A stretch of DNA of 64,000 nt, taken from NCBI GenBank assembly GCA_018816765.1, contig JAHIUX010000009.1:62001-126000 (forward strand), read 5' to 3'. Made by a program: the position numbers and the translations under genes. The stretch comes from Bacteroidota bacterium. GTDB lineage: Bacteria > Bacteroidota > Bacteroidia > Bacteroidales > F082. How positions within the stretch are numbered: position 1 is the first letter of the stretch; every line of letters begins with the position of its first letter. The notes under the pieces are model-generated. The model was not told where the DNA came from, did not search any database, and saw only the letters and a list, made by a program, of their open reading frames with translations. This document shows positions 3,166 through 50,666 of the stretch, one piece after another.

Positions 3166-3181
3166 CGGCTCATATTTGTGG

Positions 3182-3189
3182 CAAAAATA
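3182..3189 (-). promoter_or_regulatory. -7 promoter box of mutS2 (TATTTTTG)
   Basis: An exact TAnnTTTG box on the minus strand, 16 bases before the proposed GTG start of mutS2. It implies a very short leader and argues against the upstream ATG at 3222. Confidence 0.5.
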
Positions 3190-3296
3190 CAAAGTCTGCC
3201 GAAGAAAGCAGCCATCCCACACAGGAATAATAATTGCCTGACATGTATGCTGTTATGATTTTATTGTCCGTTTGATGGCCTTTTGAAATCGTTGCC

Positions 3297-7210: not shown

Positions 7211-8089
7211 ATGGAATACGTTATTCATATCGGCATTGTCTTGGGTTTGTACATGATACTGGTGGCTTCAGCCCAGTTGGTGATTGGCCATGCCAGGCTC
7301 ATCAGCCTTGGGCAGGGAGCGTTTTTCGGAACCGGCGCGTATGTCACTGCACTTTGCATGCTCAATCTTGGATGGTCATTTTTCCCTGCTTTGCTGACAG
7401 CCGTTGTCCTTAATGCCGTTATTGGATTATTGCTTGCCTTGCCTGCGGTAAGATTAAAAGGCGATTATTTTGTTTTGACGACCCTTGGTTTTCAGTTCAT
7501 CATCTTTCAACTAACGGTTAACCTTGATAGGCTAACGGGTGGGCCGGCCGGCCTCGGAGGAATACCCTCACCCAGCACACCGCAATTCCTGCCCATAAGC
7601 CAGTCAGGCTATTTGTTCGTTGTCACCCTAATTTTGGTCATTATTGCCTTTACTGCATTGTTTTTGTTGCAAAAATCACGCTTTGGCCGAAACCTGAAAG
7701 CCCTTTGTGACCACGAGTTATTGTATGAGATTTCTGGTCGCAGCCCGATTAAGCTACGCGCACAGGTGATCGCTGTTTCGGCAGCCACAACAGCCCTGGC
7801 TTCTGCGGTGTATGCTGTTTACATGAGTTACCTGGCTCCGGGTGCCTTCAACCTCGATCAGTCAATCTTCATCCTTACCGGCGTGATGCTGGGCGGACTA
7901 AGCCGTCTGCGGCAGGCTGTCGTAGGCGCGCTTGTCATCGTGCTTTTTCCCGAACTAATGCGTGCCATGGGCTTGCCCGCAACTTACGGACCATCGATGA
8001 ACCAGGTCTTTTTCGGACTGGTTTTGCTTGTTTTGGTTTCATTCACTGTTGTAAAACGCTTCCAATCAAACGAAAGGCGGAACCAATGA
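7211..8089 (+). CDS. LIV-type ABC transporter permease (LivM-like)
   Basis: 292 residues with about eight to ten hydrophobic segments. The LivM features are visible: LISLGQGAFFGTGAYVTAL near the N-terminus, LKGDYFVLTTLGFQFI, TGGPAGLGGIPSP, the coupling loop SRFGRNLKALCDHELLYEISG, and MLGGLSRLRQAVVGA near the end. With the preceding permease it should form the membrane channel. It overlaps the next gene by four bases (ATGA), so translation is probably coupled. The coupling loop reads LKALCDHELL rather than the common ALRDDE form, which may reflect pairing with an atypical ATPase. Confidence 0.87.
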   Translation: MEYVIHIGIVLGLYMILVASAQLVIGHARLISLGQGAFFGTGAYVTALCMLNLGWSFFPALLTAVVLNAVIGLLLALPAVRLKGDYFVLTTLGFQFIIFQLTVNLDRLTGGPAGLGGIPSPSTPQFLPISQSGYLFVVTLILVIIAFTALFLLQKSRFGRNLKALCDHELLYEISGRSPIKLRAQVIAVSAATTALASAVYAVYMSYLAPGAFNLDQSIFILTGVMLGGLSRLRQAVVGALVIVLFPELMRAMGLPATYGPSMNQVFFGLVLLVLVSFTVVKRFQSNERRNQ

Positions 8090-8898
8090 AACCAATAGTA
8101 CTCGATATAAAGGGCTTGTCGAAGCAGTTTTCGCTCAGTGCCAAAGGTGCCGGGAAAGGCCATGCACAGGTGATTTCTGACCTCAACCTGAGCGTTAATG
8201 AAGCCGAAGTGTGCACCATTCTCGGCAGCAATGGTGCGGGAAAAACAACGCTATTCAACCTGATCAATGGCTTTACCAGGGCCGATTCGGGGAGTATCCG
8301 GTTTTTCGATTCAGCAGGTGAAGGGCATGAGTTAACAGGGCTTTCAACCCCGCATATTGCGCGCTTGGGTATAAATCGCATGTTGCAGGGCATCAGTGTG
8401 TTCGGACACTTAAGCATGATCGATAACCTGCAAATGGCCCGACCGGTGCTGGCATCACGACACTCATGGCTCGAAAGAATGAAACCTGGCTTTTACCGGG
8501 CCGAAAAGAGACAAGCTGCGGAAAAACTCTTCGTGCAGGCCGAGCAGTTTTTTGATCAGTTCAGCATTTGCCTGGCAGCAAATCAGCATAAAATAGCCGG
8601 AACCCTTTCCACTGCCGAACAACGCCTCTTGTCGCTCTGCATGATGGTTGTTTCGCCGGCCTCGCTTCTGCTACTCGATGAGCCTTGTTCGGGTTTGCAT
8701 ACTGACCAACTGGGAATGATTGCCAAAGCCCTTGAAGAACTGAAAAGACATCAAAAAAGCATTTTACTTATCGAGCACAACCTTGCATTTGTTGAGGCGA
8801 CTTCCGACACCTGTCATTACCTCGAAGGAGGGCACATCAGGCTTTCCGGATCGGGCAATGAGGTTGTCAGGCACTATAAAACAGAACAGGGATGTTAA
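8086..8898 (+). CDS. LIV-type ABC transporter ATP-binding protein (LivG-like), atypical signature motif
   Basis: A 270-residue ATPase subunit. Walker A (GSNGAGKTT), Q-loop region (INRMLQGISVFGHLSMIDNL), Walker B (LLLLDEPCSG) and the switch histidine (LLIEHN) are intact. The ABC signature, normally LSGGQ or LSYGQ, reads LSTAEQ, which is degenerate. In asymmetric ABC transporters such a change usually leaves one of the two ATP sites weak. The partner ATPase encoded next has a normal LSGGE, so a heterodimer with one consensus site is likely. The gene overlaps both neighbours (4 bases upstream, 7 bases downstream), so the operon is tightly coupled. Confidence 0.87.
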   Translation: MKPIVLDIKGLSKQFSLSAKGAGKGHAQVISDLNLSVNEAEVCTILGSNGAGKTTLFNLINGFTRADSGSIRFFDSAGEGHELTGLSTPHIARLGINRMLQGISVFGHLSMIDNLQMARPVLASRHSWLERMKPGFYRAEKRQAAEKLFVQAEQFFDQFSICLAANQHKIAGTLSTAEQRLLSLCMMVVSPASLLLLDEPCSGLHTDQLGMIAKALEELKRHQKSILLIEHNLAFVEATSDTCHYLEGGHIRLSGSGNEVVRHYKTEQGC

Positions 8899-9554
8899 CG
8901 ATCAATGCATTGACAGTAGGCTATCTGAAAGACCAGCCCATCCTCGACGGGCTGGACCTGGTGCTGCATGAGGGCGACTATCTGGCAGTTGGTGGTGAGA
9001 ACGGTGCCGGGAAAACAACCCTGGTCAGGGCACTTGCAGGAGAAAGGGTGTGGGCCGCCGGATCGGTCCAGCTGAAAGGAAAGGAATTGACGGCAATGCC
9101 CGCCTGGAAAAGACAGGAATTGGGTTTAGGGTTTTATATGCAGGGCGCTGAAGTCTTTGGAAGGCTGAACTGTGTCGAAAACCTGCGCATTGCTGGCTCA
9201 TCAGTGCCACAACCAAGGTATCATGAAACAAGGAAATGGCTTAAAACCCGCCTGCCCATTTTCAATCAGGGGGCATTCGCAAACAAAGCCGGAAACCTGA
9301 GTGGTGGCGAAAGGGCGCAGCTGGCCCTTGCCATGGTGCTTATCGGCCTGCCCAAAATCCTGATCCTCGATGAACCTTCGGCCGGACTTTCGAGTGCCAA
9401 TGCCGAAGCCCTGCGCATGACCATCGCCGATTATTTGCATCAGTTCGGACAGGGATTGCTGCTCATCGAACAGAACAAATCACTGACAGAAGCCTTGTGC
9501 AACAGACATGCCTGGATTGCCGGTAAAAAACTTGCGCTGTTACCTCCTGCCTAA
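8892..9554 (+). CDS. LIV-type ABC transporter ATP-binding protein (LivF-like)
   Basis: A 220-residue ATPase with Walker A GENGAGKTT, signature NLSGGERAQLALAM and Walker B ILILDEPSAGLSS. Where many ABC proteins have the H-loop histidine it has LLIEQN, which is normal for LivF. It is slightly shorter than typical LivF (about 235). It starts inside the end of the previous gene and closes the operon. The convergent DUF5686 gene ends one base later, with no visible terminator between them. No periplasmic binding protein follows. Confidence 0.87.
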   Translation: MLTINALTVGYLKDQPILDGLDLVLHEGDYLAVGGENGAGKTTLVRALAGERVWAAGSVQLKGKELTAMPAWKRQELGLGFYMQGAEVFGRLNCVENLRIAGSSVPQPRYHETRKWLKTRLPIFNQGAFANKAGNLSGGERAQLALAMVLIGLPKILILDEPSAGLSSANAEALRMTIADYLHQFGQGLLLIEQNKSLTEALCNRHAWIAGKKLALLPPA

Positions 9555-9555
9555 C

Positions 9556-12201
9556 CTAAAAACTCACGGTGGTTTCGCCAAACGGAATGCCAATCCTGAT
9601 GCCCGTATATTGGTAATCGGCTCCCCTGAAACCACTTACCACTTCCAGATTGAACATCAAAAACAACTGACTGATGCCGTAACCAATTTCGGTGTAGGCC
9701 TGCCTGTCTTTGCCAATCAGCATGTTTCCGAAGACCTTTTCCCGCATGAGGCTGTTGGCCAGAAATGGCAAGCGTTTAATCAGCAAGCGGCTGTGCTCAA
9801 GTTGCAGGTGTCCCTCCACGAAACTGGTGTTGGTGCTGTTTTCGTAAAACCCCAGTGTACGGAAAACCGAAAACCTGTCACCTGCCCCAACCCAAAGTGG
9901 ATCATTGTTAAAATGCCTGTAATCTGCAAAGTAATGCCGAGAGTTGTCTAAAAACGTACCCGCCAAAAAGGCATACTGCAACCGACCTATCATCCGGATG
10001 TCAAACGATTGCCTGATGCCTGCTTCGGCATACTGATAGCGGGCATCGCTGCCAGCAACCCCGTCAAAAGCTTGTCGCCACTGCAGACTAAAAGTCGGAT
10101 AGTGCGAATACAACATTCGTTTTACTTTTCCGTCCATCCGGTAGTGATGGCGAGGGGTGTAGTCAAGCGACGCATCAACGACAAACACCTTATGTGGTGC
10201 CACCAGTTCGGGGTTTGCCAGTATTGGTGGAGGAATGTTCGGGCTGTATTGGTCTCCATACATATTGGTCAGGTAGAAATCCGAATGGTTTTCGAGTGGC
10301 CTCCTTTGCATCCAGGCGCCTGTCAGTTTAAACACCAGCCCGTTGGTAACATCAATCTGGTGTTGAATCCGTATAAAATCCTGCTCATAAAGTTTCATGT
10401 AATTGTGGCGGGCAAACAGGCTGGTAAATGTATTGAAGAAGGGCATGATGCCCTGGTTCGCATTGAAATCGATGCAGGACCTGCCGCCACTTATGCTTAT
10501 GGATGCGCGTTTTGTTGCATCGTAACGGTAGAAGGTTTCGGTTGAAGCGGTCAGCCCCTGCCGCGCAAAGCCATAGGCACCCATGCCACTCAGCCTGAGC
10601 ATCCGGCCCGAATGCCAATCCTTTTCGAAGCTGAGTTTTTTGCTGTACAACAAGCCATCAACGGTGTTAAACGAAAAAGAACTCAGTCCTGCCAACCCAT
10701 TGTGAGTGTATTTCCAGTTACTGGCCAGTTTTCTTTGCTCAGCGCCAAATATCGCATCATTAAAACGCTTGTTTCTTTTTTTATGGGTTGTATCAGCTTT
10801 CGTAGTATCTACTGGCTTTTCGCCAAAACTATTCAGTTCTTCGGTAGTGAGTGGCACCTGCCTGTTTTCTTGCCAGTAATCCACGGTTCGGGTACGGGCG
10901 CTGTCAGCAATTTTGGTGTTGGGTGGTTTCACTTCCAAGGGTGCTTTTTCCTTTTTGCCCGCAGTTTCCATTTTGATGAGTTTATTTAACTCACGCATTT
11001 CCTTGTTGTTCAGGTCCTCACGTGCCATGAGGGTTTCAATCCTGGTTTTTTTTGTATCAACCAGTGCCGCCCCGGGCGATTCAACTACGAGCGGTTCGGG
11101 CAAGGTGAGTGCAATAACGGTTGAATCCTCGGCTTTGAGTTCATCGAGCAGGCGTGCATAAAAGCCATGGTCAACAGCAGGGTTGAGCACTGTTTTGTAG
11201 TCGTTTACAGAAACAAGGTATTTGTAAGAAACAGAGGCCCCTAGCGCTTCAAAAAGGATGTCGTAATCGTGGCTCACTGGCATCCAGACCAAAGGACTCA
11301 CAGCCTGAAACACCTGCCTGATTTTCACGCTGAACATCTTCTGTTCTACAAACAAATCAACCGAATGCAGGTTCCAGCTGCCTTCGCGAACAAATAAGGT
11401 TCCTGAATAAAGGTCCTGTCCCCTCCGTTTGGGAATGACTCTTATTTTGTTGATTGTACGTCCATCTTCCACAAAGGTGCCCTCAAGCCTGAAGCGATAC
11501 ACCTGAAACGCATCCCGGCTGAGGGGCGAAATGATGCCGTTGATGTCTTCGTACAGGCTCAGGCTCACGAACTCCATCGGGCTGCTTTCGTTGGAAAATC
11601 CCGAACTGCGCATCGACAACACATTGGTTTGCAATGGTTCACCTTCCTTGTAGTGAATACTGGAAATGGTTTCTGTGACAAAATATTTGCCTGGCTCGAT
11701 GCCTTCCTTCTTAAGCTGTCCTCGCAACAGGGCCGGAATTTTGAGCGCCACCCCGGTTCCTTTCAGGTAGACATGGGCTGTGTATGCCGATACCTGACGG
11801 CGGTAATAGCTGCTCATGCTGATGGCCTTGCGCATGATATAATAGGCGGGGTCTTCGCCACTGGCCGAAATGATTACCTCGGCAAGGTTGTATGCCTGGG
11901 CACTGAGTACAATATCCTGTCTGACCATGGCATCGGCCACCACCAATAGCTTGTTTTGTGTTTGATAGCCGAGATACTGGTAAATCACTTCGTAGCTGCC
12001 CGGTGGCAAAACAAGTTGGTATTCGCCAGCCATATTGGCGGTGGTTCCTTTGTGCAATTGCGGCACATAGACCGAGGTGAACGGAATGGGCTGTTTCTTG
12101 CTATCAATCACATAACCCTGAATACCACCTGTTTGAGCAAAAAGCCCAAAAGGCAACACAAAAAAAAGTAAGGCTGAAAGGCTACAGCTAAAAAACTTCA
12201 T
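9556..12201 (-). CDS. DUF5686 outer-membrane protein with carboxypeptidase-like regulatory domain
   Basis: An 881-residue predicted outer-membrane protein. A signal peptide (MKFFSCSLSALLFFVLPFGLFAQ) is followed by a CarboxypepD_reg-like domain at about residues 25-105, with IQGYVIDSKKQPIPFTSVYV and TTANMAGEYQLVLPPGSYEV. The rest resembles the DUF5686 family, ending in a beta-barrel-like region with aromatic strands and a final phenylalanine (TTVSF), typical of outer-membrane barrels. A low-complexity charged segment lies near the middle. The family is widespread in Bacteroidota and its function is not established. I chose the ATG at 12201, which starts the signal peptide, rather than 12222. 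The gene is alone on its strand, convergent with the ABC operon. Confidence 0.8.
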   Translation of the reverse strand: MKFFSCSLSALLFFVLPFGLFAQTGGIQGYVIDSKKQPIPFTSVYVPQLHKGTTANMAGEYQLVLPPGSYEVIYQYLGYQTQNKLLVVADAMVRQDIVLSAQAYNLAEVIISASGEDPAYYIMRKAISMSSYYRRQVSAYTAHVYLKGTGVALKIPALLRGQLKKEGIEPGKYFVTETISSIHYKEGEPLQTNVLSMRSSGFSNESSPMEFVSLSLYEDINGIISPLSRDAFQVYRFRLEGTFVEDGRTINKIRVIPKRRGQDLYSGTLFVREGSWNLHSVDLFVEQKMFSVKIRQVFQAVSPLVWMPVSHDYDILFEALGASVSYKYLVSVNDYKTVLNPAVDHGFYARLLDELKAEDSTVIALTLPEPLVVESPGAALVDTKKTRIETLMAREDLNNKEMRELNKLIKMETAGKKEKAPLEVKPPNTKIADSARTRTVDYWQENRQVPLTTEELNSFGEKPVDTTKADTTHKKRNKRFNDAIFGAEQRKLASNWKYTHNGLAGLSSFSFNTVDGLLYSKKLSFEKDWHSGRMLRLSGMGAYGFARQGLTASTETFYRYDATKRASISISGGRSCIDFNANQGIMPFFNTFTSLFARHNYMKLYEQDFIRIQHQIDVTNGLVFKLTGAWMQRRPLENHSDFYLTNMYGDQYSPNIPPPILANPELVAPHKVFVVDASLDYTPRHHYRMDGKVKRMLYSHYPTFSLQWRQAFDGVAGSDARYQYAEAGIRQSFDIRMIGRLQYAFLAGTFLDNSRHYFADYRHFNNDPLWVGAGDRFSVFRTLGFYENSTNTSFVEGHLQLEHSRLLIKRLPFLANSLMREKVFGNMLIGKDRQAYTEIGYGISQLFLMFNLEVVSGFRGADYQYTGIRIGIPFGETTVSF

Positions 12202-37413: not shown

Positions 37414-38316
37414 ATGGAAGAAACATTATCAAAGCTGTTATTCGATCCCATCACAGGCAAAATCGTTACCGTTATTGCCGGAACCATGCTCATCTGGATT
37501 CTCATACAAGTTGTTCAGCGAAACCTCATCACCCGACTGAAAGACAACAATAACCGGTACCGAACCAAGAAGTTTTCACACATTATCGGGTATGTGCTGA
37601 CCATATTGCTGATTACCATTGTTTACAGCAATAAATTAGGCGGACTAACGATTGCACTTGGTGTTGCCGGGGCCGGCATTGCCTTTGCCCTGCAGGAAGT
37701 GATTGCCTCTTTTGCCGGATGGCTGGCCATTATGTTTGGTGGCTTTTATAAAACCGGCGACAGGGTACAACTGGGTGGCATAAAAGGAGATGTGATGGAC
37801 ATTGGCGTGCTGCGCACCACGATTATGGAAATCGGGCAATGGGTTGATGGAGACCTGTACAATGGCCGTATTGTGCTGATTGCAAACAGTTTTGTGTTTA
37901 AGGAACCCGTGTTTAATTATTCAGGTGATTTCCCGTTTTTATGGGATGAAATAAAAATTCCGGTACAATACGGAAGCAATTACACCCTGGCAACGACATT
38001 GTTTCAAGAGGTGGCGAAAGAGGTCGCGGGCGACCTCACGAAGCAATCGCAGGAAAAATGGGAAGCACTCCAGCAAAAGTTTCTGCTCGAAAACGCACAG
38101 ACCGAGCCGATGGTTTCGCTGATTGCAAATGACAATTGGGTAGAGTACACCCTCAGGTATGTAGTCAATTTTAAAAAACGCAGGCTGACGAAAACGGCCT
38201 TGTTTACGAAGATTCTGCAGGCCGTTGAAAAAACCAATGGCGAAGTCAGTTTTGCTTCTGCCACTTTCCAACTTGTTGAAACACCAACGTTTAAAGTGAA
38301 AATCGATCAGGAATAA
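37414..38316 (+). CDS. MscS-family mechanosensitive ion channel
   Basis: A 300-residue inner-membrane protein. Two to three transmembrane segments (GKIVTVIAGTMLIWILIQVV, IIGYVLTILLITIVYS) lead to the pore helix LTIALGVAGAGIAFALQEVIASFAGW, rich in Gly and Ala as in MscS TM3. The conserved beta domain follows (YKTGDRVQLGGIKGDVMDIGVLRTTIMEI and IVLIANSFVF), and then a cytoplasmic alpha/beta part. It should open under membrane tension in hypo-osmotic shock. Its own promoter lies in the long divergent region. A second, distinct MscS-family gene lies at 43028-43864. Confidence 0.87.
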   Translation: MEETLSKLLFDPITGKIVTVIAGTMLIWILIQVVQRNLITRLKDNNNRYRTKKFSHIIGYVLTILLITIVYSNKLGGLTIALGVAGAGIAFALQEVIASFAGWLAIMFGGFYKTGDRVQLGGIKGDVMDIGVLRTTIMEIGQWVDGDLYNGRIVLIANSFVFKEPVFNYSGDFPFLWDEIKIPVQYGSNYTLATTLFQEVAKEVAGDLTKQSQEKWEALQQKFLLENAQTEPMVSLIANDNWVEYTLRYVVNFKKRRLTKTALFTKILQAVEKTNGEVSFASATFQLVETPTFKVKIDQE

Positions 38317-39721: not shown

Positions 39722-39842
39722 CACCTTATTGTTTGATTTAACACCATGGCCTTTATTTAGCGCTAAGCAATTGTTTGTCAATGGTTGTTGTCACGTCTGG
39801 TTTCAGCGGCAGGCAACAATGGTTCAACTGGTCAATTTCATG

Positions 39843-39864: not shown

Positions 39865-41610
39865 ATGCTGAGGATCAGAAAAATATCCAACCCGCTGCTC
39901 GAAGTCAATAAACAGTCAATGCAGCACATCAGGGAGATTACCTCCCTGCAGTTTCCCGACATAAAAACTGAAAAAATTGACGAAATTGCCGCGCAACTCA
40001 TTGATCCGTTGAAGTATAAATACAAAGCCAATATTTTTGTGGCCGAAGACGGTAAGAGCAATTTGAAAGGCTTTGCGCTTTTCCTGCACATGCCCGACAT
40101 CCAGTTTTGTTACCTCGATTATATTGCAGTCACGCCTGGCAAGACTTCTGGTGGTGTGGGTGGCGCCTTGTATGAGCGTGTACGCGAAGAAGCCCTGGCG
40201 CTCAATGCTGTTGGTGTGTTTTTCGAATGCCTCCCCGATGACCCGTTGCTTTGTCCAAACCCCGGTTTCCTTGCGCAAAACAAAAAAAGGCTGGCGTTTT
40301 ATGAGCGCTATGGCGCCCGGCCCATCATAAACACACGCTACGAAACGACAGTGAACCCTGACGATGACTCTCCGCCGTACCTGGTTTTTGACGGGCTTGG
40401 ACTGCGCGAAACCCTTGAAAACGCGCTCACAAAGCGCGTGATCCGTGCGGTACTTGAACGCAAATATGGCGATTATTGTCCGACAGATTACATCAATCTG
40501 GTAGTGGATAGCGTTAAAGATCAGCCGGTTCAACTGCGCGCTTACCGGTATAAAAAACCTTCATCAGGCCTGGCCACACGTCTGGTAACTCCCGAAAGGC
40601 ATCAGATTTTCTGGGTAGTCAACGACCGGCATTCCATTCACCATATACGTGAAATTGGTTATGTTGAGTCCCCGGTCAGGATTGAAAGCATCCGCGCTGA
40701 GCTCGAAAAAACAGGCCTGTTTAAATCAGGCATTGTAAAAGAATTTGGCGAAAAACCCATCTTGAAGGTACATGACGCAGGATATGTGAATTATTTCAAA
40801 AAAGTCTGCGAAAACCTGCCTCCGGGCAAGTCCGTCTATCCTTACGTATTTCCCATCCGCAACGCTGCACGCCCCCCGAAGGACTTGTCGGTTAGGGCCG
40901 GTTATTATTGCATCGACACCTTCACCCCCTTGAACAAAAACGCTTATCTGGCTGCTCGATGGGGTGTTAACAGTTCGCTGACAGCTGCAGAAGAAATCCT
41001 GAAGGGAACTCAGTTGGCATACGTCCTTACCCGTCCACCCGGGCATCATGCTGAACGCTTTGTTTTTGGCGGATTCTGCTATTTCAACAACAACGCCATC
41101 GCCGCCAATCACCTTAGCGGATTTGGCAAGGTCGCTATTCTCGACATCGACTATCACCATGGCAACGGGCAGCAACAAATCTTTTACAACAGAAAGGATG
41201 TGTTTACAGTTTCCATTCATGGCCATCCTTCCTTTGCCTACCCTTATTTCAGTGGTTTTAAGGAAGAAATTGGCGAAGACGATGGCAAGGGATTTAACCT
41301 GAATTTTCCGCTTGGCGAAACGCTCGATGGCGCCGGTTATCGCCTGACGCTCGAGAAAGCCCTGACCGCCATTGCAAGGTTCAGGCCCGATTACCTCGTT
41401 GTTGCGCTTGGACTCGACACCGCCAAAGATGACCCAACGGGTACCTGGACGCTTACTGCCAAAGACTTTGAAGCTAACGGCCGGATGATCGGTGCGCTGA
41501 AAATGTCTACGCTGGTGATTCAGGAAGGCGGTTATAAAAACCGCAGCCTGGGTGCAAATGCAAAAGCATTTTTTACAGGATTGTATGCAAGTCACTATCC
41601 GGCCCATTAA
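39865..41610 (+). CDS. Fusion of GNAT acetyltransferase and histone-deacetylase/acetylpolyamine-amidohydrolase domains
   Basis: A 581-residue soluble protein with two opposite activities predicted in one chain. Residues about 1-170 form a GNAT domain: FCYLDYIAVTPGKTSGGVGGALYERV holds the acetyl-CoA loop, and KRLAFYERYGARPI the C-terminal helix and strand. About 175-270 is a linker of unknown fold. From about 275 to the end is a zinc deacetylase of the HDAC/AphA superfamily: RPPGHHA with His394-395, the metal ligands Asp429 and His431 in DIDYHHGNG, the third ligand Asp518 in LGLDTAKDDPTG, and the catalytic Tyr557 in EGGYKNR. All deacetylase residues are present, so it should be active. Candidate substrates are polyamines, other small amines or protein lysines. 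The gene stands alone between convergent neighbours. Confidence 0.85.
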   Translation: MLRIRKISNPLLEVNKQSMQHIREITSLQFPDIKTEKIDEIAAQLIDPLKYKYKANIFVAEDGKSNLKGFALFLHMPDIQFCYLDYIAVTPGKTSGGVGGALYERVREEALALNAVGVFFECLPDDPLLCPNPGFLAQNKKRLAFYERYGARPIINTRYETTVNPDDDSPPYLVFDGLGLRETLENALTKRVIRAVLERKYGDYCPTDYINLVVDSVKDQPVQLRAYRYKKPSSGLATRLVTPERHQIFWVVNDRHSIHHIREIGYVESPVRIESIRAELEKTGLFKSGIVKEFGEKPILKVHDAGYVNYFKKVCENLPPGKSVYPYVFPIRNAARPPKDLSVRAGYYCIDTFTPLNKNAYLAARWGVNSSLTAAEEILKGTQLAYVLTRPPGHHAERFVFGGFCYFNNNAIAANHLSGFGKVAILDIDYHHGNGQQQIFYNRKDVFTVSIHGHPSFAYPYFSGFKEEIGEDDGKGFNLNFPLGETLDGAGYRLTLEKALTAIARFRPDYLVVALGLDTAKDDPTGTWTLTAKDFEANGRMIGALKMSTLVIQEGGYKNRSLGANAKAFFTGLYASHYPAH

Positions 41611-41649: not shown

Positions 41650-42921
41650 TTACCTGAACCGAAACCCTGCCACCAACACATTTCGTGTGGTGGCTGAGCT
41701 TAGGCCTACCGATGACGACATGCCGTTTCCACGCTCGAGCCGGTACTCTACTGACCAGTTTTTGTACCTCGAACCTAAGCCAAATACCAGGCTTTGTTCA
41801 TGCTTCCGGCTTTTTTCAACAGCCTTCCCATGGTCGATGGTTTCGGTTCCATAAAACATGGAAACGGTCGTTTTTTCATTGGTTGCCTGAATTGCTATGC
41901 TGTTTGAAAAACCAGCATTTACGAAAATGCTTGCCTTGCCCACGGGAAATGTATAGCGTAGCAAATCGGTTAATTTCAAGCTGTTATACCCAATGGTAGT
42001 AGCTGTTGTTATGTATCTCTGTGGATTTGTATATTCAACAACCTGTCCGCTGACCTCGAAAGCCACATACGACAAGTCGTTAAAGACTGACCAACGCTGC
42101 TGGTTTCTGGGTAAAACCAGATTCAGTGATATGCCTGCTACAAAATTTACCGATTGTGTATAATCCGTTCCAGGTAAATAATCAGGATCTCCCTTGAATT
42201 TGAGATTGGTAAATGACACGCCCGCCACCAGACCGAATTCGACACCTAATTTATCGGCTTTTTTCTCATAGCCGGCTTGCTGGTCGACACATGCATAGTA
42301 GTCGGTAAAAACCTGGGTTAGGTTTTTTTCATTGTAAGCCAGGTCGTCAGGCAATGTTTTCATACCAGGGCAATCCTGAAAATAAAGCGCCAGCTGTGCG
42401 ATATATTTCCTGTTGACCTGAATAGAGGTGCTTTCGTCCTGGCGCAACAGGTAACGCTTGTATACCAGCAACTCATATGCACCATTTTGCCAGATATAAT
42501 ACTGGGCTTTATCGGCCAGGTTTTTGTAGAAGAAAAGACTTTTGGGGCCAAGTACCAGTGCTTGCAGAAAGCCACGTTCAGTGCGCAGCTTAACCGGAGC
42601 AAATTCTTCAAGGTCGGCAGTAATGTCGCGGGATATTTCAATTTCCACTTCCGCGCTGATGTATATTTCATTGTGCACTCCGAATTGCCTGATGTTTACC
42701 GGAGAATAATAATTTTTATCCCCTCCCGGCATCAGGACAAAGCCAATTTTTTCGGGGCTTGCCTCCCAGTTGCGGTAATCGATATAGCCAAAGAGGGTAT
42801 CACCCGATTGTGAAATGACATAGCCTGGTTCATAATTTTCCTGGGCATTGACCGAAAATCCGATCATCATGAATAAGATCATTAGCCAGCATGTGGGACT
42901 TGTGTTTGCTTGTGTTTTCAT
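41650..42921 (-). CDS. Predicted secreted/outer-membrane protein, function unknown
   Basis: 423 residues. A signal peptide (hydrophobic WLMILFMMIGFSVNA, cleavage before QENYEPG) is followed by a domain starting GYVISQSGDTLFGYIDYRNW, seen in other Bacteroidota hypothetical proteins. The last 200 residues look like amphipathic barrel strands (EFGLVAGVSFTNLKF, FVAGISLNLVLP, LLRYTFPVGKASIFVNAGF), with a final phenylalanine-containing FRFR. The start at 42921 (MKTQANTSPTC) fits the signal peptide better than the one at 42966. It may be a small outer-membrane barrel with a periplasmic N-terminal domain. It is convergent with the fusion gene and about 60 bases from the MscS gene, with no shared operon evident. 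Confidence 0.65.
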   Translation of the reverse strand: MKTQANTSPTCWLMILFMMIGFSVNAQENYEPGYVISQSGDTLFGYIDYRNWEASPEKIGFVLMPGGDKNYYSPVNIRQFGVHNEIYISAEVEIEISRDITADLEEFAPVKLRTERGFLQALVLGPKSLFFYKNLADKAQYYIWQNGAYELLVYKRYLLRQDESTSIQVNRKYIAQLALYFQDCPGMKTLPDDLAYNEKNLTQVFTDYYACVDQQAGYEKKADKLGVEFGLVAGVSFTNLKFKGDPDYLPGTDYTQSVNFVAGISLNLVLPRNQQRWSVFNDLSYVAFEVSGQVVEYTNPQRYITTATTIGYNSLKLTDLLRYTFPVGKASIFVNAGFSNSIAIQATNEKTTVSMFYGTETIDHGKAVEKSRKHEQSLVFGLGSRYKNWSVEYRLERGNGMSSSVGLSSATTRNVLVAGFRFR

Positions 42922-43027
42922 AGCAGGATTAATTTGATTTGCATGACCGTGTCTTAACAACAACAATCATATTTTGTGATGATTAATAAGGCATTTTAAG
43001 GAGATGGTGAAACAAAACAGGGTTTGT

Positions 43028-43864
43028 TCATCCCGAAGTTTGCTTCACATGAATGTCCATTTGCGGGAATGGGATGGTAATGTTGTTTTCGTTGAATTTG
43101 CGGTTAATGATCCTGCGGACTTCAGCCTTAACCTTCTCAATGCGGAAGATGTTTTTACTGAAAAACAACAGCTGAAAATCCAGTGAAGAATTGCCAAAGT
43201 CGATCAGGCGGGCTTCGATCAGGTTTTCATCAGTGATGTCAGGATGCTCCATAGCGCTTTCTTCGAGCACCTTGAGCACAAGGTCAACATTGCTGCCGTA
43301 AGCCACACCCACATTGATGCGGAAGCGGGTTTTCATTGACTGGTGACTCCAGTTGATGACTTTGTTGGTTGTTATTAATGAGTTGGGTATGATAATTGAA
43401 ATCTCATCTCTGTTAAGTCCCATTGAAGTACGCAAACCGATTTCCTGGATCTTAACGATATCGCCGTCAATTTCGAGGATATCGCCAATGCGGATGGATC
43501 GCTCCCACAGCAGAATGATTCCCGAAACGACATCATTGAATGTTTGTTGCAGCCCAAGTCCCAGACCTACCAGCAATGCGGCCGAACCGGCCAGCAACAT
43601 GGTCACCTTGATGCCAACGGTTTCCAACAGCATTCCTGTGGCAATCACCCAGATCACGTATTTGAGAATCAGGTAAAGCGCGTGTGTATTGCCGATGTCT
43701 TCCTTGTCGTGTTTATGTTTCCTGAACATGGCTGTTTTGATCAGCCATAAAATCAGTTTGGTAAGAACAAAGATGAACAAGATAATAATCAGGGTGTACA
43801 CCTTTATTTTGTACTCGCCAATGCTGAGCAATTCGAATTTAAGGAATAAGTTGATTGTATTCAT
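43028..43864 (-). CDS. MscS-family mechanosensitive ion channel
   Basis: 278 residues with three to four N-terminal membrane segments (YTLIIILFIFVLTKLILWLI, YLILKYVIWVIATGMLL). The pore helix is TMLLAGSAALLVGLGLGLQQTFNDVVSGI. The beta domain follows (IRIGDILEIDGDIVKIQEIGLRTSM) and IIIPNSLITTNKVINWSH. This is closer to the classical MscS/YnaI arrangement than the other channel at 37414. It probably belongs to a separate transcript. The following gene on the strand (43906) is 41 bases upstream and may be cotranscribed. Confidence 0.87.
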   Translation of the reverse strand: MNTINLFLKFELLSIGEYKIKVYTLIIILFIFVLTKLILWLIKTAMFRKHKHDKEDIGNTHALYLILKYVIWVIATGMLLETVGIKVTMLLAGSAALLVGLGLGLQQTFNDVVSGIILLWERSIRIGDILEIDGDIVKIQEIGLRTSMGLNRDEISIIIPNSLITTNKVINWSHQSMKTRFRINVGVAYGSNVDLVLKVLEESAMEHPDITDENLIEARLIDFGNSSLDFQLLFFSKNIFRIEKVKAEVRRIINRKFNENNITIPFPQMDIHVKQTSG

Positions 43865-45153: not shown

Positions 45154-48100
45154 TTATAGCCAGCCAAGATTCTCGTCAAACTCGTTGTCGATCAGTTTGT
45201 TCATTACATCACATCCGTGGTCAAACAAGCGGTTTGCATTGTCCTTGTCTTTGAACACAAACTGCAGTTCCTTGTATTCGCCACGCTTTGGCAGCATGCT
45301 GAGTGCCTCATCGAGTGCCTGTCCGGGAGTTGTAGCGCCCCGAACACCCAATTTCCCACAAATCTTTACCAATTGTGAAAAGGCATCTTCGTTCACTGGT
45401 CCTGGCAACTGCTTGTCAATGCGCTGAATGCGCCTTTGCGAGTTGGTGAAACTTCCACCCATTTCCCAGGGGAAACTGGCTGGCAACACCAGGTTGGCAC
45501 GCTCGGCAGTAGCAGTCATGATATAGTCTTGAACCACAACAAATCCAAGGCGGTCGAACCATTGGCCGACTTCCTGTTTGTTCAGCGCACAGCCCACAGG
45601 GTCCTCACCGAAAATGAGGACGTTGTCGACCCTTCCACCTGAAATAAGCTTATAAACACTGTTTACAGTAAACGGAAGGTCTTCAACACCCCAGCGGTGT
45701 GCCATGCGGTATTGCATGTCCTCATCGAGAATCGGCTCAGCGCCAACACCAATTTTATGACACATACCCATATCGATGATGCCATGTGCATTGCTTATCT
45801 CCTTTAGTGAAATCAATCCGTTGGCTGTTTTGCCAAGCTTTCCGGTGATCATGGCCAAGTTGTGCATGGCCAGACTGGCATTTGCCGAAACCGCCTTTTC
45901 CTGATACACCATAATGGCGTTCAGCTCCTGGTCGTAATCACGCGCAAATGCAGCTACAGTGGCAGCATCGGTTCCAGCCCATTCGAGCAGCTTGCTGAAG
46001 TCCTGTTGAAGCATCTCATCCCTGAAGGCATCAAATCCCTGTGTGCGGTCACCTATAAACAGGTCGTTCTCGAGGCTGTTTTTCAGGACGTAGTGGCACA
46101 CTGCCTGGACAAAATAGAAATGATTTTTTATGCGGATCACCTGGTCGCATTTTTTACTGAATCGGCTGTCGGCCAGTGTGGTTATGTGTACAACCTCAAC
46201 TTTTTCCTTGAATTTCGAATTAAAAATCAGGTGATTGATCACTGGATGGTCGAAGTGCAGCTCATCACCGGCTACGAAAATCTTCGAGGCACCACGTAAA
46301 TCGCAGAAGAAGGTATTTTCGTTTGAATTGTGGAAATAGCCATCGCCGCGACCCAAATAGTGAAAACTGCTGACATTGTTGGTTTTAACGCCAGCCCTGG
46401 CCAGTTTCTGAATCATATATTGCTCTTCGTTGGTGAGCCTTGCGCCACCAAAGAACGCATTTTGATCGGGATTTGCCTTGCGGATTTTTGCTGCAATCAG
46501 TTCATATGCTTCATCAAACCCAATTTGCACAAACGAATTGCCTTTTTTCAGCAAGGGCATTGTGATCCTGTCTGGTCGGTTAAATAGTTTATATCCAAAG
46601 AATTGCTTCCTGTTGATCAGGCCAATTTTATTGATTTCAGCCTGACGTGATTCAGCTTTGTAGAACTGACCGCGGTGGTGCAAAAGGTTGGTTTCATATC
46701 CTTCTGAGCCGAACATGTCGATGGCTGTAATGGGCTCGAGTTTCAACGGGCCTGGTTTGAAGGCAACATTTTCGGTGATGGCACCTGTTGGACAGGTGGT
46801 AATGCACAGTCCACAGCTCTCGCAGCTGGTTTCCTGCAAGGGCAGCCCCATGCTGGGAGCAACATAGCTTTTGAATCCCCTGTTTACGAGTCCCAAAGCA
46901 CCAGCTCCGACGACCTCGCGGCAGATGCGGATACACCGTGAACACAAAATGCATTTGTTGTTGTCGATTTCGATGAAAGGATGCCGGTGATCAATTTCTG
47001 TTACCAGAAAATCGCCTTCAAAGGCTTTTTGTTCAGCCTGATAGGTGGTCGAGTGTTTTTTCAGGTCGCAGGTGAAATATTCGGTACATCCGCACTCTAG
47101 GCAGCGGCTGGCTTCCATCAGGGCGGTCATTTCATCGTGGTAGCCGAGTTCAACTTCCTTGAAATTGTTGCGGGCCGAAGCCGGCATCACCGGCATTTCC
47201 TGCCTTTTCTGGTGCTGGTATTTTTGCTTGTATTCGGCAGGCTCTTGTTCTTTGAAGTTATCCTTTTTACTCAGAAATTCTTTGGCAACAGGCCTTACTT
47301 CTACTCCGCTAAGGAATTGATGGCACGAACGGGCGGCAATTCTTGCCTGCGCGATGGCTTCAATAATTGTTGCAGGACCGGTTACACCGTCACCGGCAGC
47401 AAATACCGAAGGGATGCCTGTTTGCAAGGTGTGTTTGTTGGCCTCAATATCGCCCCAGCGATTGATGTTAAACTTGCCTTCTTTCGCATAGGCATTGATG
47501 TTCTCAATGAAATCAACGTCGGTTTTCTGTCCGATGGCGGCCAGGATAAAATCGGCCTGCAGGTCGAATTCTGAGCCCTCAACAACCACTGGACGTCGCC
47601 GGCCTGAAGCATCAGGTTCGCCTAAGGCCATGCGTGTCAACCTGACTGATTTCAGTTTTCCTTCTTCGTCCTTCTTTATTTCTACCGGATTGGTCAGAAA
47701 CAGGTATTCAACGCCTTCGAGTTTCGATTCATGTATTTCGATCGGATTGGCCGGCATTTCTTTTTCGGTGCGGCGATAAACCACGTACACCTTATCAGCG
47801 CCACAACGGATAGAGGTGCGGCAACAGTCCATTGCAGTGTTTCCACCACCAACTACAACCACGGTTTTTCCCTTGAAGTCGTAGCGCTGGCCTGTCATTT
47901 CCATATTGCGAAGGAAATCGATTCCTGAAAAAACGTTTTCAGCATCGTCGCCCGGACAGCCAACTGATGTTCCCTTTTGAGAACCAATGGTCAGAATGGT
48001 GGCCTGAAAATTCTTGCTAACATCCTTGTAATTCAGGTTTTTGCCCAGGCGTTTGTTATAATGGATTTTCACTCCCAGGTCGGTGATGTTTTTCACTTCT

Positions 48101-48852
48101 TTATCAAGCAGGTCGTTGGGTAAGCGGTATTCCGGAATGCCGTATCGCAACCATCCGCCAGGGTTTGGGGCTGCCTCGAAAATTTCGACAGCATGGCCTT
48201 CAAGCCGCAGGTAATACGCTGTCGACAGTCCGCCCGGGCCTGCGCCAATGACAGCGACTTTTTTGCCTGTTTCCGGTTTCAGTTTTGGTACAAAATGGTT
48301 TGGTGAGGCAAGGTCATAGTCTGCCGCAAAGCGCTTAAGGTAATCAATGCCAACAGCAGCGCCTTCTTCCATAAGGTTGCGGCGGCATGCCACCTCGCAT
48401 GGTCTCACACAAACCCGGCCGCAGATGGCCGGCAATGGATTGACCTCTTTGATCAGCGCAACAGCATCGGAATACCGTCCTTTGTCAATGAGGGAAATGT
48501 ATCCCTGCACATCAACGCCAGCCGGACAAGTCTGCTTGCAGGGTGCCATACAATCGGCATAGTGGTTGCTCAGCAGCAGGTCAAGTGCTGTCTTTCTCGA
48601 CAGTTTCAAGGCTTCTGTTTCTGTCTCAATTTCCATTCCTGGAGCAATCATCGTTGAACACGATGGCTGATGGCCCCGCATGCCTTTCACCTCAACAACG
48701 CATACATAGCAGGACGAAAAGGGCTCGATACGGGGATCATGGCATAATGTGGGAATGTCGAGACCGTGTCGTGTGGCGCATTCATAAATGGTTTCTCCCT
48801 GAATGCCCTGAACAACTTCACCGTTCAGCAGTATATTGATATATTGGTTCAT
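45154..48852 (-). CDS. GltD-NuoG fusion: Fe-S and FAD/NADPH-type oxidoreductase with degenerate molybdopterin-type domain
   Basis: 1232 residues, cytoplasmic. Domain order: [2Fe-2S] ferredoxin-like (Cys37, 48, 51, 65); a GltD-type double Fe-S N-domain (Cys101, 105, 109 and Cys144, 148, 152, 156); an FAD/NADPH module with AVIGAGPGGLS near 199-210 and the second Rossmann VVVVGGGNTAMDC near 331-343 followed by YRRTEKEMPA; two [4Fe-4S] motifs (Cys634, 637, 640, 644 and Cys677, 680, 683, 687). The C-terminal half, of molybdopterin-oxidoreductase/NuoG type, has no catalytic Cys/Sec, as in NuoG. It is the last gene after the NuoE- and NuoF-like genes, 26 bases from the second. The GltD part suggests NADPH, the NuoF part NADH, so a transhydrogenase is the best guess. 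The frame is open to 48921, but MNQYINILLNGEVVQG is the natural start. Confidence 0.83.
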   Translation of the reverse strand: MNQYINILLNGEVVQGIQGETIYECATRHGLDIPTLCHDPRIEPFSSCYVCVVEVKGMRGHQPSCSTMIAPGMEIETETEALKLSRKTALDLLLSNHYADCMAPCKQTCPAGVDVQGYISLIDKGRYSDAVALIKEVNPLPAICGRVCVRPCEVACRRNLMEEGAAVGIDYLKRFAADYDLASPNHFVPKLKPETGKKVAVIGAGPGGLSTAYYLRLEGHAVEIFEAAPNPGGWLRYGIPEYRLPNDLLDKEVKNITDLGVKIHYNKRLGKNLNYKDVSKNFQATILTIGSQKGTSVGCPGDDAENVFSGIDFLRNMEMTGQRYDFKGKTVVVVGGGNTAMDCCRTSIRCGADKVYVVYRRTEKEMPANPIEIHESKLEGVEYLFLTNPVEIKKDEEGKLKSVRLTRMALGEPDASGRRRPVVVEGSEFDLQADFILAAIGQKTDVDFIENINAYAKEGKFNINRWGDIEANKHTLQTGIPSVFAAGDGVTGPATIIEAIAQARIAARSCHQFLSGVEVRPVAKEFLSKKDNFKEQEPAEYKQKYQHQKRQEMPVMPASARNNFKEVELGYHDEMTALMEASRCLECGCTEYFTCDLKKHSTTYQAEQKAFEGDFLVTEIDHRHPFIEIDNNKCILCSRCIRICREVVGAGALGLVNRGFKSYVAPSMGLPLQETSCESCGLCITTCPTGAITENVAFKPGPLKLEPITAIDMFGSEGYETNLLHHRGQFYKAESRQAEINKIGLINRKQFFGYKLFNRPDRITMPLLKKGNSFVQIGFDEAYELIAAKIRKANPDQNAFFGGARLTNEEQYMIQKLARAGVKTNNVSSFHYLGRGDGYFHNSNENTFFCDLRGASKIFVAGDELHFDHPVINHLIFNSKFKEKVEVVHITTLADSRFSKKCDQVIRIKNHFYFVQAVCHYVLKNSLENDLFIGDRTQGFDAFRDEMLQQDFSKLLEWAGTDAATVAAFARDYDQELNAIMVYQEKAVSANASLAMHNLAMITGKLGKTANGLISLKEISNAHGIIDMGMCHKIGVGAEPILDEDMQYRMAHRWGVEDLPFTVNSVYKLISGGRVDNVLIFGEDPVGCALNKQEVGQWFDRLGFVVVQDYIMTATAERANLVLPASFPWEMGGSFTNSQRRIQRIDKQLPGPVNEDAFSQLVKICGKLGVRGATTPGQALDEALSMLPKRGEYKELQFVFKDKDNANRLFDHGCDVMNKLIDNEFDENLGWL

Positions 48853-48878
48853 CGTTTCTATTTTTTCTATCGTTAACA

Positions 48879-50666
48879 TTAATCCACCATCACGGCATCG
48901 AATTTGCAAACCGTGTAACACTCACCGCAGCGGATGCAGGCTTCGGTGCGAATGAAATGGACCTCTTTGCGTGTTCCGTCGATGGCATTTGTCGGACATT
49001 TCTTTGCACACACGGTACAACCCGTGCATTTATCCGCATCGATGGTGTAGGTAAGCAATGGCTTGCAGGCCTTGGCCGGACATTTCTTGTCGTGAATATG
49101 GGCTTCATATTCATGCCTGAAGTACTTCAGCGTAGTGAGTACAGGATTTGGCGCTGTTTGCCCGAGTCCGCACAATGAATTATCCTTGATCTGGTAGGCC
49201 AGCAACTCCAATGTTGCAATATCTTCCTGCTTTCCTTTGCCTTCCGTTATTCTTTCGAGTATTTCGAGCATGCGCTTTGTTCCAATGCGGCAGAAAGTGC
49301 ATTTCCCGCACGACTCTTCCTGTGTAAAGTGCAGGAAGAATTTCGCCAGGTCGATCATGCAGGTTGTCTCATCCATAACCACCATCCCGCCTGAGCCCAT
49401 AATGGCTCCTGTGGCTGTAACAGAGTCGTAATCGACGATGGTGTGCCCGAGTTCGGCAGGAATACAACCGCCTGATGGCCCTCCTAGCTGAACTGCCTTG
49501 AATTTTTTGCCTTTTTGTATGCCACCACCAAGCTTAAAGATGATGTCGTTGATGGAAATGCCCATCGGCACTTCTACAAGGCCGCCATTGTTGATTTTTC
49601 CGGTGAGGGCAAAAACCTTGGTTCCCTTGCTTTTTTCTGTTCCATAGGCCGCGTAGGCTTCGGCGCCTTTGTTGATGATCCAGGGAATGTTGGCCCAGGT
49701 TTCAACGTTATTGATGTTGGTGGGTTTTTTCCAGAGTCCTGATACGGCAGGAAAAGGCGGCCTTTTACGCGGCATACCCCGCTGACCTTCGATGGAAGCA
49801 ATGAGGGCTGTTTCTTCGCCACAAACAAAAGCGCCGGCACCTTCTTTCACATAAATATCAAAATTGAATCCCTCCTTGCCCATGGCATTTTTTCCGAGGT
49901 AGCCTTTTTCCCTGGCTTGCCCAATGGCGATGTTCAATCGCTTGATTGCCAGCGGATATTCGGCCCTGCAATAGATGACACCTGTTTGTGCACCAATGGC
50001 ATAGCCACCAATCATCATGCCTTCGAGCACAGCATGCGGATCGCCTTCGAGCAAAGACCTGTCCATAAATGCACCCGGATCACCTTCGTCGGCATTGCAG
50101 ATAATGTATTTTTCAGGGTTTTCGCTCTGGTAGGCAAATTTCCACTTAAGTCCGGTTGGAAATCCTCCACCTCCCCTGCCCCTTAGGCCGGAGTCGAGTA
50201 CATTCTTTATTACTGCTTCCTGGCTCAGGCCTTGTCCGATGATCTTCCGGATGGCATGATAGGCTTCGCGCTGCTCTGCTTCTTCAAGCGATTCAGGGTC
50301 CATATAGCCGCAATTGCGCAGGGCAATTTTTACCTGTCCATCGAAAAAGCGGTGCTCGCTGCCCTCAAACTGGTCTGACTGAACAGCCATTGTTTCGTCA
50401 ACAACCCCCTCTTTCAGGTGTTTTAAGATGACAGCGGATACCTTATCATCCGTCATATCGCCATATATCACGCTTCCTTTTGCATCCTGCACTTCAACGA
50501 GCGGTTCTTTATAGCACATTCCGATACAGCTGGTCCTGGCCAGGTCGAAGGTGACCTCGCCCTGAAGCTGCAATTCCTTCAGCTTATTGTATGTTTTTGT
50601 GGCACCTGCAGCGATTCCGCAGCTTCCGAGACCAACAATTACCTTCGCTGTTTTATTGTTTTTCAT
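48879..50666 (-). CDS. NuoF/HndC-like NADH-binding flavoprotein subunit
   Basis: 595 residues. A thioredoxin-like [2Fe-2S] domain comes first (about 1-110, with ARTSCIGMCY). The FMN/NADH domain has GRGGGGFPTGLKW and CNADEGDPGAFMDR, and the [4Fe-4S] motif is ESCGKCTFCRIGT. Two bacterial-type [4Fe-4S] clusters at the C-terminus (CTGCTVCAKKCP and CIRCGECYTVCKF) give the same layout as HydB/HndC of [FeFe] hydrogenases and of NADH-dependent bifurcating enzymes. It is soluble, with no quinone-reducing partner in the window. It starts 4 bases into the end of the NuoE gene. It should pass electrons between NADH and the Fe-S chain of the fusion protein. Confidence 0.88.
   Translation of the reverse strand: MKNNKTAKVIVGLGSCGIAAGATKTYNKLKELQLQGEVTFDLARTSCIGMCYKEPLVEVQDAKGSVIYGDMTDDKVSAVILKHLKEGVVDETMAVQSDQFEGSEHRFFDGQVKIALRNCGYMDPESLEEAEQREAYHAIRKIIGQGLSQEAVIKNVLDSGLRGRGGGGFPTGLKWKFAYQSENPEKYIICNADEGDPGAFMDRSLLEGDPHAVLEGMMIGGYAIGAQTGVIYCRAEYPLAIKRLNIAIGQAREKGYLGKNAMGKEGFNFDIYVKEGAGAFVCGEETALIASIEGQRGMPRKRPPFPAVSGLWKKPTNINNVETWANIPWIINKGAEAYAAYGTEKSKGTKVFALTGKINNGGLVEVPMGISINDIIFKLGGGIQKGKKFKAVQLGGPSGGCIPAELGHTIVDYDSVTATGAIMGSGGMVVMDETTCMIDLAKFFLHFTQEESCGKCTFCRIGTKRMLEILERITEGKGKQEDIATLELLAYQIKDNSLCGLGQTAPNPVLTTLKYFRHEYEAHIHDKKCPAKACKPLLTYTIDADKCTGCTVCAKKCPTNAIDGTRKEVHFIRTEACIRCGECYTVCKFDAVMVD

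Follow-up and report, generated by a model that had tools for sequence, protein, structure and literature searches.

Enzymes that counteract each other are as a rule kept separate, which prevents futile cycling. Where a conserved acetyltransferase shares one chain with its formal opposite, the question arises of whether the pair serves cycling, switching or sensing. Concerning the related systems, the characterised polyamine deacetylases carry Glu106 or His106 and a P-I-S gatekeeper, and AcuC is placed in sub-cluster 2c (both from extracts of PMC11532494). In Ca. Methanoperedens, a salt-induced kamA-ablB operon for acetyl-beta-lysine has an MscS-like gene as its first gene (extract of PMC11337218), and lysine, positively charged as such, becomes a neutral zwitterion on N-acetylation (extract of PMC4685198). 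Each of the domain families concerned and the idea of acetyl-beta-lysine are already known. In the open-licence literature we found no description of a fused writer–eraser protein or of an aminomutase and twin-ligase gene set; database entries may exist.

The fusion gene and its relatives

In the window studied here, a stretch of 64,000 nucleotides of DNA from a Bacteroidota bacterium, a writer and an eraser domain are fused in one protein, and many anaerobic bacteria conserve this fused state. The features of the gene and of two of its neighbours are presented in Table 1.

Table 1. Position of the fusion gene, its domains and motifs, and two neighbouring genes in the window
Feature	Position	Strand	Evidence
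GNAT-deacetylase fusion gene (FUS), 581 aa	39865..41610	+	ORF call, Pfam, alignment with relatives
GNAT acetyltransferase domain, residues ~1-181	39865..40407	+	Modelled fold; Pfam weak
Acetyl-CoA loop, residues 93-100	40141..40164	+	G97, G99 invariant, 85/85
FFECLPDD, family-specific motif, residues 119-126; includes strand 118-122 of the GNAT model	40219..40242	+	Alignment, model
N139-x-x-R142-L-x-F-Y146-E147, helix with the conserved GNAT Tyr (84/85)	40279..40305	+	Model, alignment
Helical extension and linker, residues 182-242	40408..40590	+	Alignment, model
Zinc-dependent deacetylase domain, acetylpolyamine amidohydrolase type, residues ~243-580	40591..41604	+	Pfam, profile search, model
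Catalytic His394-His395	41044..41049	+	85/85
Zinc ligands Asp429 and His431	41149..41157	+	85/85
Zinc ligand Asp518	41416..41418	+	85/85
Gatekeeper segment P524-T-G-x-W528 (P-I-S in polyamine deacetylases)	41434..41448	+	85/85
Catalytic Tyr557 in EGGY motif	41533..41535	+	85/85
MscS-family channel upstream of the fusion; may be a functional partner	37414..38316	+	Pfam, genome search
MscS-family channel downstream of the fusion; may be a functional partner	43028..43864	-	Pfam, genome search

The open reading frame begins with an ATG at 39865, ends with a stop codon at 41608-41610 and contains no internal stops. A longer in-frame alternative begins with a TTG at 39775; the ATG is preferred as the start, because the Met1 it encodes aligns with residue 1 of the relatives. 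The initial annotation had placed a GNAT acetyltransferase and a deacetylase on this one chain, and both the ORF and the conservation of the fusion in its relatives bear this out. A search of the own genome gave a single match to the gene, on contig C33. The NCBIfam scan named neither half of the protein and returned one weak match without bearing.

With one genome scanned per species, 260 relatives of the fusion came to light, of which the best 80 were kept. All of these 80 match the protein from residue 1 to residue 573 or beyond, with 55-78% identity, and a chance fusion, a frameshift or an assembly artefact is rejected on the grounds that 80/80 of the kept relatives (of 260 found) are full length. 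No stop codons were found in the aligned regions of the 86 sequences used. Based on their record labels, which can err for metagenome-assembled genomes, the best 80 of the 260 come from Bacteroidetes or Bacteroidales, Desulfobacterales, Desulfuromonadales, Chloroflexi, Acidobacteria, Calditrichaeota, Synergistales, Spirochaetales and others. The alignment used below consists of 85 sequences: the protein of the window, the 80 relatives from the scan and four more, three of which repeat loci of the scan. Cultured carriers include Desulfacinum infernum DSM 9756 (L052) and Desulfoferrobacter suflitae (L060). Looking at closer relatives, the full fusion is present in 5 of 61 genomes (the own genome and 60 relatives) and in neither of the two other genomes of the genus; in a sample drawn evenly from the order it is found in 5 of 149 genomes. 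Since this distribution is patchy, the gene probably moves between lineages.

The N-terminal GNAT domain

Searched alone, the N-terminal 190 residues match two Pfam families weakly: Acetyltransf_7 at 1.4e-5, short of the cut-off of that family, and Acetyltransf_1 at 1.1e-4, which passes its own. The protein was modelled with AlphaFold2 together with 48 family members, giving a pLDDT of 82.4 for the whole chain and of 93.8 for residues 1-242 modelled alone; the N-terminal domain was folded separately because the VIA matches of the whole-chain model span residues 243-580. The top Foldseek match of the N-terminal model is Tetrahymena GCN5 (1m1d, E 6.6e-8), and VIA aligns 166 residues of it with 2wpx (Z 15.9, rmsd 2.5). 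According to the model, the N-terminal domain has the GNAT fold, which settles an assignment for which the sequence matches were weak. The initial annotation had given residues 1-170 to the GNAT domain and residues 275-581 to the deacetylase; both assignments stand, while the limits shift slightly, to about 1-181 and about 243-580.

Concerning the conserved residues, the alignment keeps G97, G99, E121 and D125 in 85/85 sequences, Y146 in 84/85 and D126 in 82/85. The acetyl-CoA loop of GNAT proteins is usually Q/R-x-x-G-x-G/A. Its first position in the fusion is T in 48/85 sequences, P, I and S in eight each and other residues in the rest, and Q/R is absent among the residues shown. Invariant G97-x-G99 and a nearly invariant Tyr146 suggest that the loop is not dead; the first reading of the gene, which a non-GNAT domain or a loop dead in most homologues would have overturned, is thus not refuted by the modelled fold and the 85 sequences. 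The linker which follows has helices at residues 186-200 and 207-215, and Y201, Y209, S216 and R225 are invariant in 48/48 sequences. Among 295 genomes of the class, the search for free-standing copies of the fused GNAT domain gave, apart from the fusion, a single weak match (E 7e-5, residues 35-118).

The C-terminal deacetylase domain

Pfam assigns residues 267-572 to Hist_deacetyl (3.7e-73). The sequence profile matches the solved structures 9gkz (7.4e-93), 6phr (2.8e-88) and 3q9b (3.2e-79), the top Foldseek match of the C-terminal domain is 6pi1 (E 2.5e-28), and VIA aligns 328 residues with 6pi8 (Z 39.8, rmsd 3.3). Among solved structures, the acetylpolyamine amidohydrolases are thus the closest match in sequence and in predicted fold. 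In the whole-chain model the pLDDT falls below 50 at residues 237-240, 327-337, 345-351, 400-403 and 456-458, so no geometry of the pocket is claimed for it.

The classical zinc deacylase site is complete: Asp-His-Asp, the double His and the catalytic Tyr are all found in 85/85 sequences, and the zinc ligands Asp429, His431 and Asp518 and the catalytic Tyr557 had been named correctly in the initial annotation. E397, T525, G526 and W528 are further invariants of the family in the 85 sequences. The residues linked to polyamine specificity are different. At the position which matches Glu/His106, as read from the profile alignment, the fusions have Ser (46), Pro (20) or Ala (14), together 80/85; these residues thus mostly occupy the 106 equivalent, and P-T-G-x-W is present in 85/85. 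The polyamine-like substrate suggested earlier is therefore not favoured in its classical form, as position 106, the gatekeeper and the gene company described below all point away from it.

Genes which accompany the fusion

Clustering of the ORFs around the fusions revealed four recurring neighbours: a KamA-type radical SAM aminomutase (KamA), two different Ddl-like ATP-grasp proteins (A1 and A2) and a small GNAT (GNATb), referred to here as the core genes. They were counted with the own-genome proteins as tblastn queries in 84 loci, three of them duplicated, with flanks of up to about 6 kb, many of which are short. At least one of the four is beside the fusion in 41/84 loci (GNATb 39, A2 38, A1 34, KamA 33); one of these, L017, is counted solely through a weak KamA match to a 508-residue protein, which is probably another member of the KamA family. 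The partner genes are on the same strand as the fusion in all loci but L067 and are often tens of bases away from it. None of the four was found in the available flank, often a short one, of 43/84 loci. Within the window, none of the core genes adjoins the fusion; in the own genome KamA-A1-A2-GNATb lie on C18:54321-58092 (7322-11093 of locus L107) with gaps of 1, 1 and 23 bases, apparently as an operon, on a contig separate from that of the fusion (C33). Near the fusion locus L002, positions 1990-3507 (- strand) encode a different fusion, in which a weak GNAT match is joined to a carbon-nitrogen hydrolase.

A search with A1 was made in 48 genomes for which the ORF scan had shown neither ligase next to the fusion; two are repeats, which leaves 46. 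A1 is present at E <= 1e-50 in 38 of these, and a diverged tandem pair is found in six others (G090, G095, G096, G104, G105 and G106). The remaining two (G093 and G100) have no clear A1-A2 pair among the matches listed. In locus L052 the later tblastn search placed A1 beside the fusion despite the negative ORF scan. In the order sample, A1 is found at E <= 1e-40 in 23/149 genomes, and all 5/5 genomes with the fusion are among these 23 (hypergeometric 6e-5). The fusion is absent from 18 of the 23 A1-bearing genomes, which makes it an optional module that the core pathway does not need. With A1 in 18 fusion-less genomes of the 149, the KamA, ligase and GNAT set apparently constitutes a separate pathway. 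A gene that might replace the fusion was looked for in 20 core neighbourhoods, some of them short, from 16 of the 18 fusion-less genomes and from four genomes with the fusion; a match to the fused GNAT or to the deacetylase was found only in L119. The idea that GNATb and the GNAT of the fusion are closely paralogous received no support from hhalign (probability 1.4).

Looking at each core protein separately, the own KamA aligns with the L-lysine 2,3-aminomutase 2a5h at 1.3e-122. In the 2a5h-type enzyme we take Asp293 and Asp330 to bind the side-chain amine of lysine, and we regard Arg134 and the PLP-lysine Lys337 as its other marker residues. In the 31 KamA proteins compared, a partial one (L058) having been dropped, both Asp residues are kept in 30/31 and Arg and Lys in 31/31, the exception being the L017 protein. 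The KamA scores are 455.9 (own) and 464 bits (L015), below the 525.4 of the AblA equivalog cut-off (TIGR03820), so the lysine-type label is putative. The KamA proteins of L033, L035, L064 and L079 have diverged motifs (CPM[LF]CRHCTR, YLFQCDEV) with both Asp residues kept, and may form a subfamily.

The ligases likewise stay below the curated Ddl cut-off of 243 in NCBIfam: the best score of the own A1 is 148.7 among the matches listed (25 of 37) and that of the own A2 is 105.6 bits. The L015 and L036 copies of A1 and A2 exceed the Pfam cut-off of Dala_Dala_lig_C. Against the AblB model TIGR03827 (cut-off 205.1), the GNATb of L015 reaches 15.5 bits, and neither the own GNATb (E up to 0.001) nor the fusion (E up to 1) is matched. 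Of 47 fusion genomes searched, 4 carry a canonical AblB above the cut-off, so the gene set is usually not found with the classical pathway. One genome with canonical AblB is G093, in which KamA adjoins it and the best A1-like match is at the level of an ordinary Ddl.

Mechanosensitive channels near the fusion

Both MscS genes of the window lie within 4 kb of the fusion. The own genome has six MscS matches, and the rough chance of such an arrangement is 9e-5. The Pfam scan covered 206 of the 231 listed genes which flank the fusions; MscS accounts for 5/97 in the first batch, where it is the commonest family, and for 3/109 in the second, where it is tied second; with 8/206 in total it leads all families of the scan. 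By tblastn, an MscS-family gene is present in the available flank of 8/84 fusion loci and was not found in that of the other 76, many of which are short. The background is 102 MscS matches in 32 of the 46 fusion genomes, about 3.2 each. Assuming 3,300-3,500 genes per genome, the excess beside the fusion has a chance probability of 3e-11 to 7e-9, a range to be read with caution, since loci of related genomes do not count independently. MscS was found beside the core genes in 0/20 core loci, so the osmotic link goes with the fusion rather than with the core. Other neighbours in the first Pfam batch are TrkH (twice), Na/H exchangers (twice) and a GT20 glycosyltransferase (once), GT20 being presumably the trehalose-phosphate synthase family.

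Two further genes of the window were recorded. The ORF at 41650-42966 (- strand, 438 aa) is convergent with the fusion, has no Pfam match at E 1e-5 and begins, as judged by eye, like a signal peptide. The ORF at 45154-48921 (- strand) encodes a protein of 1255 aa, with a glutamate-synthase-small-subunit-like NAD(P) oxidoreductase, NuoG/hydrogenase-like iron-sulfur domains and a molybdopterin oxidoreductase domain; it reaches the cut-off of none of the 25 NCBIfam models listed (of 59).

Possible function of the fusion

The company of an aminomutase and amide ligases points to a beta-lysine-derived amine as the substrate. The reading that we favour, albeit with a good deal of doubt, is that the fusion acetylates and deacetylates a small molecule derived from beta-lysine, probably an osmolyte, as an optional module of the KamA pathway; a classical polyamine is a less likely substrate. 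The chemistry and the substrate itself, the use of the same molecule by both domains and their coupling, the net direction of the flux and a role in osmotic stress are what we infer.

In the proposed course of events, KamA would make beta-lysine or a close relative, and A1 and A2 would form amide bonds as Ddl-like ATP-grasp ligases. The stand-alone GNATb would then acetylate the product to a neutral solute, similar in kind to N-epsilon-acetyl-beta-lysine. On this solute or a close derivative of it, the GNAT domain of the fusion may add an acetyl group and the amidohydrolase domain remove it, and the cell could thereby adjust or dismantle its solute pool, most plausibly when the osmotic pressure changes. 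One possible mode is the net removal of acetyl groups on down-shock, while MscS vents the solute; alternatively, the fusion might hold a set ratio of charged and neutral forms. A wider proposal, which we put forward as a speculative possibility, is that this is a new pathway, widespread in anaerobes, for an acetylated osmolyte made of a beta-lysine-containing peptide or amide, the acetyl group being both attached and detached by a single fused chain, which would thereby control how large or how charged the pool is and would work with MscS during osmotic change.

Other readings of the same data give the two domains different tasks. In one of them the deacetylase is the working enzyme, on the same type of substrate, and the GNAT domain would bind acetyl-CoA in a sensing or regulatory capacity and tune deacetylation. 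The lower mean pairwise identity of the GNAT domain (0.54 vs 0.64 for the deacetylase), the loss of Q/R from the loop and the presence of a GNAT of its own (GNATb) in the gene cluster agree with such a role; we nevertheless consider it rather unlikely, given that Tyr146 (84/85), E121 and D125 (85 each) and D126 (82/85) are kept, for which a pure acetyl-CoA sensor has no obvious need. Masking offers another use of the same genes: the GNAT would protect an amine during ligation by A1 and A2, and the deacetylase would unmask the product. Ligases, acetyltransferases and deacetylase are indeed adjacent in many loci, but with 18/23 A1-bearing genomes of the order sample lacking the fusion, the core pathway needs no unmasking by it, and the idea is highly improbable.

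A polyamine cycle, with a spermidine-type acetyltransferase fused to an acetylpolyamine amidohydrolase, would fit the nearest solved relatives of the deacetylase (9gkz and 6phr, with the scores given above) and the presence of a spermidine N-acetyltransferase, 4jly, among the 50 Foldseek matches listed for the GNAT domain. It would also fit the conservation, in an alignment made by reading, of the dimer-contact residue Arg95 of PsApaH (extract of PMC11532494) as R332. Against this stand the Ser/Pro/Ala that mostly occupy the 106 equivalent, the different gatekeeper and the family's own invariants E397, T525, G526 and W528. No polyamine gene family was recognised among the 25 flanking Pfam families listed per batch, and we regard the cycle as quite unlikely. 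Protein lysine acetylation is the remaining alternative, in which the fusion would be a self-contained writer and eraser and the fused counterpart of AcuA and AcuC of Bacillus. Here the deacetylase matches the polyamine-type amidohydrolases far better than HDLP, which we take to be AcuC-like (7e-93 vs 7e-35), and the recurring genomic partners are enzymes of small molecules. What speaks for a protein switch is that AcuA, a GNAT, and AcuC, an HDAC-like protein, are co-encoded and act in opposite directions on acetyl-CoA synthetase (extract of PMC13039410), and that one ApaH of cluster 4 also deacetylates acetylated AcsA (extract of PMC11532494); on balance we hold it to be improbable.

The aminomutase and twin ATP-grasp cluster offers a promising route to a new beta-amino-acid solute of anaerobes. 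It also leads to an enzyme of the HDAC family that may act on neither histones nor polyamines.

Comparison with known systems

The NAGGN osmolyte cluster, in which a GNAT, an ATP-grasp protein and a hydrolase are combined for an acetylated peptide osmolyte, resembles the fusion gene set in its general make-up. Unlike that set it has, to our knowledge, no aminomutase and no HDAC-type domain. The AblA/AblB pathway of N-epsilon-acetyl-beta-lysine shares with the fusion gene set a lysine-2,3-aminomutase-type enzyme and a GNAT, as well as, in one archaeal operon, the MscS neighbour; the set described here adds two ATP-grasp ligases and the fusion, and its own GNATb has no AblB match.

The acetylpolyamine amidohydrolases MrApaH (3q9b), msAPAH (6phr) and PsApaH (9gkz), of cluster 4 in the extract of PMC11532494, have in common with the fusion the fold, the zinc site, the RPPGHH and EGGY motifs and the segment of the L2 loop before GYY with its Arg (R332 in the fusion). 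The fusion differs from them by its N-terminal GNAT, its P-T-G-x-W gatekeeper, an L1 segment that is shorter, and the Ser/Pro/Ala that it mostly has where they have Glu/His106. AcuA-AcuC of Bacillus subtilis likewise pairs a GNAT with a classical zinc deacetylase, but on separate chains and for a protein substrate (both according to the extract of PMC13039410), and its deacetylase belongs to a different branch.
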